NCBI GenBank assembly: GCA_016935315.1
Contig: JAFGRD010000172.1
Span: 1-64,000, forward strand
Source of the DNA: Pirellulales bacterium
Lineage (GTDB): Bacteria > Planctomycetota > Planctomycetia > Pirellulales > Thermoguttaceae
Length of the DNA stretch: 64,000 nt
Reading direction: 5' to 3'
Shown here: positions 14,203 to 64,000 of the stretch, one piece after another
Position numbering within the stretch: position 1 is the stretch's first letter
How the letters are laid out: the number at the start of each line of letters is the position of its first letter
Position numbers and translations under genes: made by a program
Notes under the pieces: generated by a model
What the model was told of the DNA's origin: nothing
Databases searched by the model: none
The model's input: the letters and a program-made list of their open reading frames with translations, nothing else

Positions 14203-14304
14203 GGGCTGGCGGGAGAAGCGGCCGGACCGATGCGCAACCTGTTCTTTTACGAGTCCTGAGGGTCCTACGCGACCGGCAGGATTGCGACTTGCGCGCTTCC
14301 ACGA

Positions 14305-28256: not shown

Positions 28257-28362
28257 TATTGACGCTTGCACGGTCAATGCGCGGGGGCGACCAACGGGAG
28301 CCCGATCTTCTCCGGCCTCCCGTTGGTCGGCCTGGATCATTCACAATGCAGACATCAATAAA
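28257..28362 (+). repeat. Dispersed structured intergenic repeat, copy A
   Basis: A ~105-bp element shared with 41508-41612 (reversed) and, in part, 63964-64000. Hairpin 1 is TTGAC (28259-28263) / GTCAA (28273-28277). Hairpin 2 is a perfect 12-bp stem, arms 28289-28300 and 28317-28328, around a 16-nt loop starting CCCGAT. A conserved single-stranded-looking tail (CATTCACAATGCAGACATCA) ends near 28362. Substitutions relative to the other copy mostly preserve pairing. It contains no gene and lies in the 540-bp spacer between the HD-GYP gene and the secretin. Confidence 0.75.
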
Positions 28363-41507: not shown

Positions 41508-41612
41508 TTACTGATACCTGCGTTGCGAATGAGCCGGGCCAGCCAACAGAAGGCCGCAAGAATCGGGCTCCCGTCGGCTGTCCTCGTGCCTCGACTGTGC
41601 AACCGTCGATCA
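41508..41612 (-). repeat. Dispersed structured intergenic repeat, copy B
   Basis: Reverse-complement copy of the element at 28257-28362. Hairpin 1 is TCGAC/GTCGA (41591-41595 and 41605-41609), a paired T-A to C-G change relative to copy A. Hairpin 2 arms are 41568-41580 and 41540-41552. In the same sense as copy A it has two compensatory pairs and three G.U pairs; on the opposite strand these would be A.C mismatches. It ends 13 bp before the ribosome-binding site of nadC. Confidence 0.72.
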
Positions 41613-41637: not shown

Positions 41638-42585
41638 TTGAGCAAGGAATTCCACCAAATCGTCTGGGACGACCGGCTGCGGGCCGATCTTGGCGAGATC
41701 CTTCGGCTGGCAGTCCGCGAGGATCTGGACCACGAGGGCGATTGGACCAGCAGGGCCCTGGTTGGCGACAACGCCGTCGGCCGGGCCGAGGTCGTGGCGC
41801 GACAGCCGGGTATCATGGCGGGACTGGCCGGGGTCGAAATGACGCTTCAGGCCTTCGATCCACGGCTTCGCTGGTTGCCGGAGGCAGAAGACGGGCAACC
41901 CGTCGCCCGCGGCGGTCGCGTCGGGCGAATCGAAGGACCGGCACGAGGAATCCTCGTCGCCGAGCGGAGCGTCCTGAATCTACTGGGGCGGCTTTGCGGC
42001 ATCGCCACGCTGGCGCGCCGATACGTCGAGGCCGTCGCCGGCACCGCCGCCCGGATCTATGACACGCGGAAGACGACCCCCGGGTGGCGGCGCTTGGAGA
42101 AATATGCCGTGCGATGCGGCGGGGGGCGGAACCATCGGACGGGACTGTTCGAGGCCGTGCTGATCAAGGACAACCATCTGGCCCTGGGTGCGCGGGGGCC
42201 GGCGGGCGGGCCGGGTCGATTTGCACCCGCCGAAGCCGTCGCCCGGGCTCGTGCGTTTGTCAACAGCCACGTGCCGGAATCGGCTCGCCCCGCGATGATC
42301 ATCGAGGTCGAGGTGGACACGCTCGAACAGCTCGACGAAGTCCTGCCGACCGGTCCGGACGTGGTGCTGCTGGACAACATGAGCCCGGCCGATTTGTCCA
42401 AGGCGGTTGCCCGTCGCAACGCCTGCAACACGACCGTGGAATTGGAGGCCTCCGGGGGCGTCAGCCTGGAAACGGTCCGCCGCATCGCTGGTAGCGGAGT
42501 CGAACGAATTAGCGTAGGGGCGTTAACACACTCGGCCGTGTGCCTGGATCTGGGCCTCGATTGGCTTGCTGAAGACGTTGCATGA
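41638..42585 (+). CDS. nadC: Nicotinate-nucleotide pyrophosphorylase (carboxylating)
   Basis: A 315-aa quinolinate phosphoribosyltransferase, which converts quinolinate and PRPP to nicotinate mononucleotide in de novo NAD synthesis. The usual length is about 280-300, so it is slightly long, with extra residues around a Gly-rich loop (ALGARGPAGGPGRFAPAEAV). Motifs seen: LVREDLD-like AVREDLDHEGDWTSRALV, ERSVLNLLGRLCGIATLAR, TRKTTPGWRRLEKYAVRCGG, GGRNHRTGLFEAVLIKDNH, LLDNMSP and LEASGGVSLETVRRIAGSGV. The initiation codon is TTG, supported by a perfect AGGAGG. It is a lone housekeeping gene between the two filament loci. Confidence 0.95.
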   Translation: MSKEFHQIVWDDRLRADLGEILRLAVREDLDHEGDWTSRALVGDNAVGRAEVVARQPGIMAGLAGVEMTLQAFDPRLRWLPEAEDGQPVARGGRVGRIEGPARGILVAERSVLNLLGRLCGIATLARRYVEAVAGTAARIYDTRKTTPGWRRLEKYAVRCGGGRNHRTGLFEAVLIKDNHLALGARGPAGGPGRFAPAEAVARARAFVNSHVPESARPAMIIEVEVDTLEQLDEVLPTGPDVVLLDNMSPADLSKAVARRNACNTTVELEASGGVSLETVRRIAGSGVERISVGALTHSAVCLDLGLDWLAEDVA

Positions 42586-63197: not shown

Positions 63198-63968
63198 ATG
63201 TACCGCTTCATCGTTTTCTGGCTTCAACCGTTCCCGCTGCTGGGGCTGCTGTTGGTGTTGGGTTTGGTCAACCTTTGGCGCAAGCGAGAGCTGTCGCGAC
63301 GCCGTCTACTGCTGGTGACGATTCCGCTGGTGGGATTGGTGGTGCTGTTTATGCCGGCCAGTGGATACCTGGCCCAAGGGACGCTGGAGTGGCTCTACCC
63401 GCCGCAAGACGCCCCTGCCGAGGGCTTCCAGGCGATCGTCGTCCTGGCCGGTTACGTGCGGCCGCCGGACGACGTGTTGCCCCAAGCCGAGCTGGGGCAC
63501 AGCACGCTCGACCGTTGTCTCCACGCAGCGCGAGTGTATGCCCGGAGCGGACCGTGCCCAATTGTGGTGACCGGTGGGAAGGTCGATCCCCATACGCCGG
63601 GGCCGCCGGCAGCCCACACCATGCGCGATTTCCTCCTCACGCAGGGGGTGGCACCGTCGGATTTGCTGGTCGAGGACCGTTCGCGGACCACCTACGAGAA
63701 CGCAACCGAGACGAAGAAGCTCCTGGCCGAACGGGGAATCGACCGCATTGTGTTGGTGACCACCGCCACGCACATGTTTCGGGCGGATCGCTGTTTCCGC
63801 GTCCAGGGTTTTGAGGTCACGCCGTCGGGTTGCACCTACGAATCCACACACTTCGACTGGTCGGTGTTCAGCTTCCTGCCGCATCCCAGCGCCGCCGATA
63901 AAGTGCAACAGGCAGTGCATGAATGGCTGGGAATCCTCTGGTATTGGCTGCACGGCCGGGTTTCTTGA
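63198..63968 (+). CDS. YdcF/SanA/ElyC-like membrane protein (DUF218)
   Basis: A 256-aa inner-membrane protein. Two N-terminal helices (FWLQPFPLLGLLLVLGLVNL; LLLVTIPLVGLVVLFMPAS) are followed by a periplasmic DUF218 domain: FQAIVVLAGYVRPPDDVLP, STLDRCLHAARVYARSG, IVVTGGKV and the conserved EDRSRTTYENATETKKLLAE. It continues with RIVLVTTATHMFRADRCFRV. The SRTTYENA segment is diagnostic. E. coli relatives are linked to envelope polysaccharide and lipid-carrier homeostasis. The stop codon TGA (63966-63968) lies inside the first hairpin of the dispersed repeat (copy C). Confidence 0.88.
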   Translation: MYRFIVFWLQPFPLLGLLLVLGLVNLWRKRELSRRRLLLVTIPLVGLVVLFMPASGYLAQGTLEWLYPPQDAPAEGFQAIVVLAGYVRPPDDVLPQAELGHSTLDRCLHAARVYARSGPCPIVVTGGKVDPHTPGPPAAHTMRDFLLTQGVAPSDLLVEDRSRTTYENATETKKLLAERGIDRIVLVTTATHMFRADRCFRVQGFEVTPSGCTYESTHFDWSVFSFLPHPSAADKVQQAVHEWLGILWYWLHGRVS

Positions 63969-64000
63969 CGCCTGCACAGTCAATGCGAGAGGACGACCAA
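63964..64000 (+). repeat. Dispersed structured intergenic repeat, copy C (cut by window end)
   Basis: CTTGACGCCTGCACAGTCAA and the following TGCGAGAGGACGACCAA match the first 37 bp of copy A. Hairpin 1 is TTGAC (63965-63969)/GTCAA (63979-63983). The start of hairpin 2 (GACCAA) is the last visible sequence. The element begins inside the stop codon of the YdcF-like gene. Confidence 0.65.

Follow-up and report, generated by a model that had tools for sequence, protein, structure and literature searches.

The dispersed repeat present in three copies in the 64-kb window (the whole stretch of 64,000 nucleotides analyzed here) is best read as a non-coding IS630-type MITE of approximately 99–102 bp, with imperfect inverted ends starting with TTGA, inserted at the TA of a YTAR target and served in trans. 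We put the probability of this reading at roughly 0.9, and that the repeat is mobile is its solid part. Most likely, the copies would have spread by cut-and-paste movement in trans by IS630-group transposases whose ends begin with TATTGA. The earlier note on this DNA had offered two explanations: a structured non-autonomous mobile repeat, or selection on a structured RNA in one reading sense. The first was supported by the copy number, the YTAR target, the IS630-like ends and the relatives found across the order, but the second found no support in the hairpins that the note had named.

Copies in the window

Copy A occupies positions 28257–28360 on the forward strand at full length with both TA dinucleotides, the element proper spanning 28259–28358. 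A covariance model built solely from other genomes recovered it over positions 1–104 (E value, 4.7e-16). The genes on either side are divergent, an HD-domain protein being encoded on the reverse strand and a secretin on the forward strand. Each arm of copy A carries a core: GGGCGACCAACGGGAGCCCGA in the left arm (28285–28305, forward strand) and, in reverse-strand reading, GGCCGACCAACGGGAGGCCGG in the right arm (28312–28332). Copy B (41509–41611, reverse strand) was found by the same model at full length but diverged (E value, 6.4e-5). Its 5′ TA is now GA, and it lies 26 bp upstream of the predicted start of a quinolinate phosphoribosyltransferase gene (41638–42585).

Copy C comprises the first 38 positions of the element (63963–64000, forward strand), runs past the end of the window and continues in locus L043; its TA is now TC. 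The upstream DUF218 gene (63198–63968, forward strand; PF02698, profile positions 1–133 of 133) ends inside this copy, where the TGA of the tip TTGACG is the stop codon of the gene (63966–63968) and the junction now reads TCT-TGA. All three copies were recovered in the window by a model from other genomes, in agreement with their placement in the earlier note. A and B share 75% identity over 104 aligned positions, and A and C share 86% over 36.

Copy number, boundaries and target site

The host genome (G000) comprises 7.1 Mb in 172 contigs. A 22-nt pattern of the left end, with up to three mismatches allowed, gave 198 + 172 matches in this genome compared to 4 + 4 in the control, and a 21-nt pattern of the right half gave 169 + 126 compared to none in the control. 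From approximately 1.2 Mb of stretches, which include the window and were picked partly because copies lie in them, and 60 small loci, 151 copies were collected, of which 127 were full length. Boundaries were analyzed in 123 of the 127; copy B and the copies at L002, L009 and L016 were dropped because the end anchor failed. The host-genome copies differ from their consensus by a mean of 8.5%, and their decay is by substitution.

The host-genome element spans TTGACG to CATCAA. The length between the TAs was 99 bp in 105 of the 123 copies, or approximately 103 bp counting both TAs. Position −3 was C or T in 120 copies and position +3 was A or G in 118, which defines the target as YTAR. Insertion at TA was indicated by an exact TA on at least one side of 105 copies (both sides in 60, one side in 45; neither side in the other 18). 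With a left flank of YTAT and a right flank of TAR, any duplication is limited to TA at most. The search for empty sites, orthologous or paralogous, yielded none, so we infer the TA duplication. When the joined flanks of host-genome copies were compared with the examined sequence, the spanning matches were tandem or neighboring copies or the locus itself. Empty sites were likewise absent from an all-against-all comparison of the relatives' loci, from a comparison of one G150 locus with seven genomes of its genus, and from a comparison of L269 (a G078-type locus) with G033.

An alternative origin is a MITE from a different DDE family whose target resembles YTAR. In the available text of its report, MITEPsy1 is 100 nt long, has the target CTAG or YTAA, is filed as "IS5?" and has been observed to transpose (PMC3189936), and it is thus alike in length and target. 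However, MITEPsy1 duplicates 4 nt, compared to TA at most here, and the ends of the present element match IS630, so that the probability of such an origin is close to negligible.

Several further features of the copies were observed. Contigs C22, C23 and C57 of the host genome start, and C14, C101, C50 and C58 end, in or at a copy; the assembly is therefore interrupted at the repeat, and the true number of copies may be higher. Tandem direct pairs with a period of approximately 98 bp lacked the expected TA spacer (L096:17628–17825 and L101:1092–1290). Truncated copies broke off where the core begins or close to it, suggestive of a preferred breakpoint (L104:19631, L095:15533, L091:18298 and L144:5866). 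No autonomous copy with the interior of the MITE was noticed in the examined host-genome stretches, where the partial copies listed stopped at or near the core and no distant partner end was noticed. A second dispersed repeat, GGACTCGCAAAAGAACAAGTTGGGCAT..., occurs at position 14256 of the window (reverse strand), L102:997–1221, L104:11635–11858 and L108:17461–17690; in places it forms an inverted pair approximately 225 bp apart, and several times it adjoins the TA of the MITE.

Genomic placement and stop codons

Full copies in the examined host-genome stretches are intergenic in 100 of 103 cases, compared to 752 of 6000 random points. Two of the remaining three overlap a gene partly and one lies inside a gene. 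These counts rest on a simple hexamer gene caller instead of a standard annotation (coding fraction, 0.86), with overlaps of a few bases counted as intergenic. Copies between genes of the same direction showed no orientation preference (29 along, 28 opposed).

With the TA counted, both tips of the element read TATTGA. A gene stopped exactly at the TGA of TAT-TGA at 28 of 206 ends, belonging to 27 of 104 host-genome elements with copy C included, and other stop offsets occurred at most twice each. One element had a gene ending in the stop-codon position at each end, and the TA or TGA has since mutated at some of the 28 ends. Free YTAR sites in the same stretches numbered 576 in coding sequence, 449 in intergenic sequence and 88 in stop codons. 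An even draw from the intergenic and stop-codon sites would place 17 of 104 elements in stop codons, compared to the 27 observed (p = 0.012). The pattern is therefore mostly due to target choice and the removal of harmful insertions, and any extra preference is modest. Stop-codon placement in relatives from other genomes was much weaker than in the host genome, at 8 of 246 ends with a next-highest offset of 4.

Where the TAR of the target is the TAA or TAG of a gene, insertion would convert it to TAT-TGA, adding one residue (Tyr) before the protein ends. The stop-codon sites would accordingly each have held a TAA or TAG, and the surviving copies would be the harmless insertions, lying between genes or inside such stop codons. 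As the tip supplies a TGA, the protein is one residue longer and otherwise intact, which helps to explain hundreds of copies in a genome that is approximately 86% coding. Gene finders should be applied with caution, since some stop codons in this genome are those of a mobile element. In one locus (L277:2678–2781), an element is read through in an 898-aa ORF between apparent membrane-domain repeats and is possibly a MITE-derived linker.

Relatives across Pirellulales

The family spans the order Pirellulales. The end pattern was found in 6 of the 99 genomes searched, the host genome among them, and of the 11 non-host loci read from this search by the ends alone, 10 had the same core inside. With up to two mismatches allowed, a core pattern occurred in 43 of 246 Pirellulales genomes, while the control never gave more than two matches per genome; some of the 43 genomes are represented by single matches in apparent coding sequence (e.g., L214 and L215). 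In a named genome collection, the core pattern matched at least 44 records. Among the matches listed, 39 were Planctomycetes by title and five were not, and the listed Planctomycete titles were mostly Pirellulales or Planctomycetaceae, including Botrimarina hoheduenensis (order Pirellulales). An exact scan of the same collection with the right-half pattern of the host-genome element returned no record. With E values up to 0.001, stricter filters and at most 13 candidates scored per genome, the covariance model, which was built from 42 relatives' elements, none of them from the host genome, detected elements in 26 of the 297 genomes examined from the class, the host genome being one of them.

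The ends were also searched without the interior. The pattern TATTGA-N(89-94)-TCAATAR gave 180 forward and 178 reverse matches, mostly identical places, in 25 chosen genomes, compared to 1 and 2 in the controls. Most of the places among the matches listed, which include none from G057, G078 or G035, carry the core or a variant. Those without it were the places in G045 and G059 and a few single places in G150, G126, G153, G089 and G048. L365 (G045) and two places in G059 (C1:2839453–2839557 and C1:2853409–2853514) have TATTGA ends and a length of approximately 105 bp with a different interior and no core.

The length with both TAs was 103–106 bp in 77 of 92 distinct relatives' elements, as bounded by a search that slightly favored YTA and TAR. 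Their general layout is a first end of approximately 28 bp, starting Y-TA-TTGA, and next to it the core GGNC-GACCAACGGRA-GNCC; from there to the opposite end runs a variable segment, which in many cases looks able to fold. The host-genome element instead has one core on each arm, inverted to each other, and therefore forms a long imperfect hairpin of 38–42 predicted pairs. In four elements of G014 (L268, L284, L342 and L343), the right arm bears a second core that has decayed, a state between the one-core relatives and the two-core host-genome element.

Relatives' elements between genes of the same direction, with their own direction set by the core, lay along the genes in 42 cases and against them in 20 (62 elements, p = 0.007), a count that uses our own gene calls and elements partly related by descent. 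Orientation was first counted on two overlapping sets (26 vs. 9, and 19 vs. 11 with p = 0.20), which were then merged and de-duplicated. Nine rows of the first set, which had 70, are absent from the merged list: six duplicated places and L365, L370 and L373, in which the core is absent or poor.

The probable IS630 partner

The ends of the repeat match those of one IS630 (Tc1/mariner) group, and it is for this reason that the repeat is read as an IS630-type MITE. DDE_3 gave four matches in the host genome, one of which, at C149, spans the whole domain; this IS630 has the right end TATTGACTCTCGCAGAAGTAGTGA and the left end GATTGACCTTCGCAGAAGTAGTGA. DDE_3 was present in 40 of 60 related genomes, and G047 was among those that gave no match. 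A transposase piece from G026 had matches in 14 of 22 genomes and none in the other 8, which include G078, G089 and G035. TATTGA ends 1101–1142 bp apart were found in the IS of G026 and in those of the three genomes that ranked next by transposase match (G057, G145 and G132). Since a single DDE_3 match of four is whole in the host genome and 8 of 22 genomes were unmatched, the partner appears to be often missing or lost.

The right end of the G145 IS, TATTGACCCTGGCGCGGCGAATGAACCC, equals the relatives' MITE consensus at 22 of the 24 defined positions among the first 28 (manual count). With the better of the two ends taken over 24 positions, the IS and the MITE of the same genome agreed at 16 positions in the host genome, 17 in G145, 15 in G057 and, as the best case, 20 in G132, so that the likeness inside a single genome is in many cases incomplete. 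The G145 IS agreed with the MITE of its genus-mate G114 at 21 of 24 end positions, and the host-genome IS agreed at 22 of 24 with L274, an element from another genus of the same family. Over 12 MITE families, five IS630s of the TATTGA type scored 11–22, compared to 5–14 for eight IS630s with other ends. An end pair was detectable in 13 of 30 IS630 loci and was TATTGA in 2 of those 13. We infer from these sequence comparisons that transposition would be carried out by an IS630 transposase.

The core was absent from 29 of the 30 IS630 loci, the exception being a one-mismatch spelling in L206, and from the first 75 bp read at the five IS end pairs. IS630 descent leaves the conserved core unexplained.

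A repeat of the REP/BIME type, moved by a RAYT (Y1 tyrosine) transposase acting on a single-stranded hairpin, would also be an intergenic palindrome with a conserved hairpin, and GTAG- and CGTC-tagged REPs are reported from Planctomycetes in the available text of PMC3733652. That model is not known to predict a length of approximately 103 bp, inverted ends of 24–28 bp, a YTAR target or ends shared with a DDE transposon, all of which are seen here, and we regard it as extremely unlikely.

Pairing of the hairpins and the inner core

The pairing of hairpins 1 and 2 was counted in 123 aligned host-genome copies (4 of the 127 were dropped, copy B among them). The earlier note had taken paired substitutions between copies A and B, and G.U changes confined to one reading sense, as signs of RNA selection or of a structured mobile repeat. 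These substitutions are present, yet the family as a whole does not show them as a rule. In hairpin 1, the C7-G17 pair is neither Watson-Crick nor wobble in 54 of the 123 copies, and the co-change of T4 and A20 gave p = 0.078. The 169 changed cells of hairpin 2 comprised 8 Watson-Crick, 56 G.T, 59 A.C and 46 other combinations. As A.C is G.T seen on the opposite strand, the counts of 59 and 56 indicate that no strand is favored, which speaks against selection on an RNA. This is the outcome that the earlier note had named as refuting its reading, namely further copies in which the stems are broken as often as kept. Selection for RNA pairing among these copies was thus not found for either hairpin.

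Over the whole long hairpin of the host-genome copies, both sides had changed in 42 cells compared to 26.7 expected, and 19 of the 42 were Watson-Crick; this mild excess of double changes may come from subfamilies. Raw single changes comprised 228 G.T, 146 A.C and 178 others. Polymorphic columns 94 and 86 contributed 36 and 47 of the 228 G.T, respectively, and the counts are about even without those two pairs. The outermost TA columns of this alignment were set by hand and are uninformative.

Across 42 relatives, 84.3% of the cells in the whole structure were paired, compared to 25.9–39.1% when slid, and the score was 0.304 compared to 0.05–0.08. Most of this signal is supplied by the end helix, which is formed by the imperfect inverted ends of 24–28 bp and has 80.2% of its cells paired. 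Its changes across genera (G.T 52, A.C 63) had no wobble bias, and this covariation without a favored strand is attributable to two ends following one transposase.

The core, a small hairpin that the earlier note had not singled out, behaves otherwise: unlike hairpins 1 and 2 in the host genome, it pairs as a hairpin across genera. Its variable pair was C-G in 29 of the 42 relatives, G-C in 12, T-A in 1 and broken in none. When this pair was left free, the 39 Planctomycete records among the matches listed had C-G in 19, G-C in 17, T-C in 2 (both Schlesneria records) and T-G in 1. In 130 elements chosen by their ends and a loose loop, the pair was Watson-Crick in 107, wobble in 11, A.C in 1 and other in 11. 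The four inner core pairs of the same elements showed 25 wobbles compared to 10 A.C. However, a single position accounts for 9 of these wobbles, all G.T and exemplified by the G153 copies listed, and the wobble excess is therefore only a hint. Conservation of the core is partly built into alignment A1, since 37 of its 42 rows came from search patterns that held the core or part of it (the exceptions are L155, L158, L160, L162 and L164). Evidence free of this bias comes from the loci detected by their ends, 10 of 11 of which have the core, and from the ends-only pattern, whose listed places mostly bear it.

These observations bear on the possibility that the repeat is first of all a structured RNA under host selection, such as a cis-regulator, terminator or processing site, and that its dispersal is secondary. 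From genus to genus, the core varies in a way that keeps it paired (none broken of 42; Watson-Crick in 107 of 130), as such an RNA would, and the 42 vs. 20 orientation of the relatives along genes points in the same direction, being the one sign of an RNA-level effect. However, wobble bias is absent from both the end helix and hairpin 2 of the host genome, orientation in the host genome is even (29 vs. 28), and the copies decay by substitution to a mean of 8.5% off the consensus. In Rfam, the 64-kb window had no match at the gathering score; permissive searches gave copy A weak matches, mostly to microRNA models, with a best E value of 0.07 that falls short of the threshold, and gave six relatives' loci weak matches only. 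We consider a structured RNA highly unlikely as the primary explanation.

A possible two-part organization

Within the reading as an IS630-type MITE, the core would probably serve mobility or the survival of copies, acting as a hairpin. A more speculative proposal, which we would sooner doubt than accept, is that the elements may be two-part mobile units. Their replaceable ends would follow any available IS630 of the TATTGA group, while the constant core (GGNC-GACCAACGGRA-GNCC), foreign to the transposon, would be the part inherited across the order and would act in folded form, either in RNA or in single-stranded DNA. The TATTGA tip and the YTAR target would together make TAA and TAG safe landing sites, as an adaptation to the genetic code.

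MITEs are usually regarded as short-lived deletion derivatives of one transposon. If this superfamily keeps its length of approximately 104 bp and its inner hairpin across the order while its ends change, it would have accompanied transposases over long times without coding for anything itself. Such a superfamily would allow tests of what a MITE requires apart from its ends. The family is a new form of IS630-type MITE: it extends across the order, conserves a hairpin between its ends and supplies a stop at its tip. The open-access literature searched, outside which most subscription papers lie, held no account of this MITE family or of stop-codon placement by IS630 MITEs.

Comparison with known systems

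By analogy, the closest known case is RUP with IS630-Spn1. In the available text of two sources (PMC2229807 and PMC3049150), RUP is 107 bp long, occurs in 108–110 copies and has TA ends and inverted ends resembling those of the resident IS630. The likeness concerns how RUP works and is drawn from its description. As described there, RUP is AT-rich and confined to one species and its near relatives, whereas the Pirellulales family is GC-rich and order-wide. A core hairpin conserved between the ends, and the exact placement of many copies in stop codons, further set the Pirellulales family apart from RUP as described. RUP ends have 9 contiguous pairs in the review table, compared to 24–28 imperfect pairs here.

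Other small repeats were compared by the descriptions given in the available text of PMC2229807. Correia/NEMIS and ERIC are alike in being small, high-copy, TA-ended, MITE-like palindromes. The CIR (Caulobacter intergenic repeats) are likewise small and carry a phylogenetically conserved motif exposed in a loop; however, they are described with two arms and no inverted ends, whereas the ends of the Pirellulales family pair mutually and its conserved motif is different.

For the mechanism, the available text on ISY100 (IS630/Tc1-mariner) reports cut-and-paste transposition in vitro into TA with TA duplication (PMC2170065), which is the mechanism that would apply to the Pirellulales family. ISY100 encodes its transposase, whereas the Pirellulales element is non-coding and would have to be served in trans.
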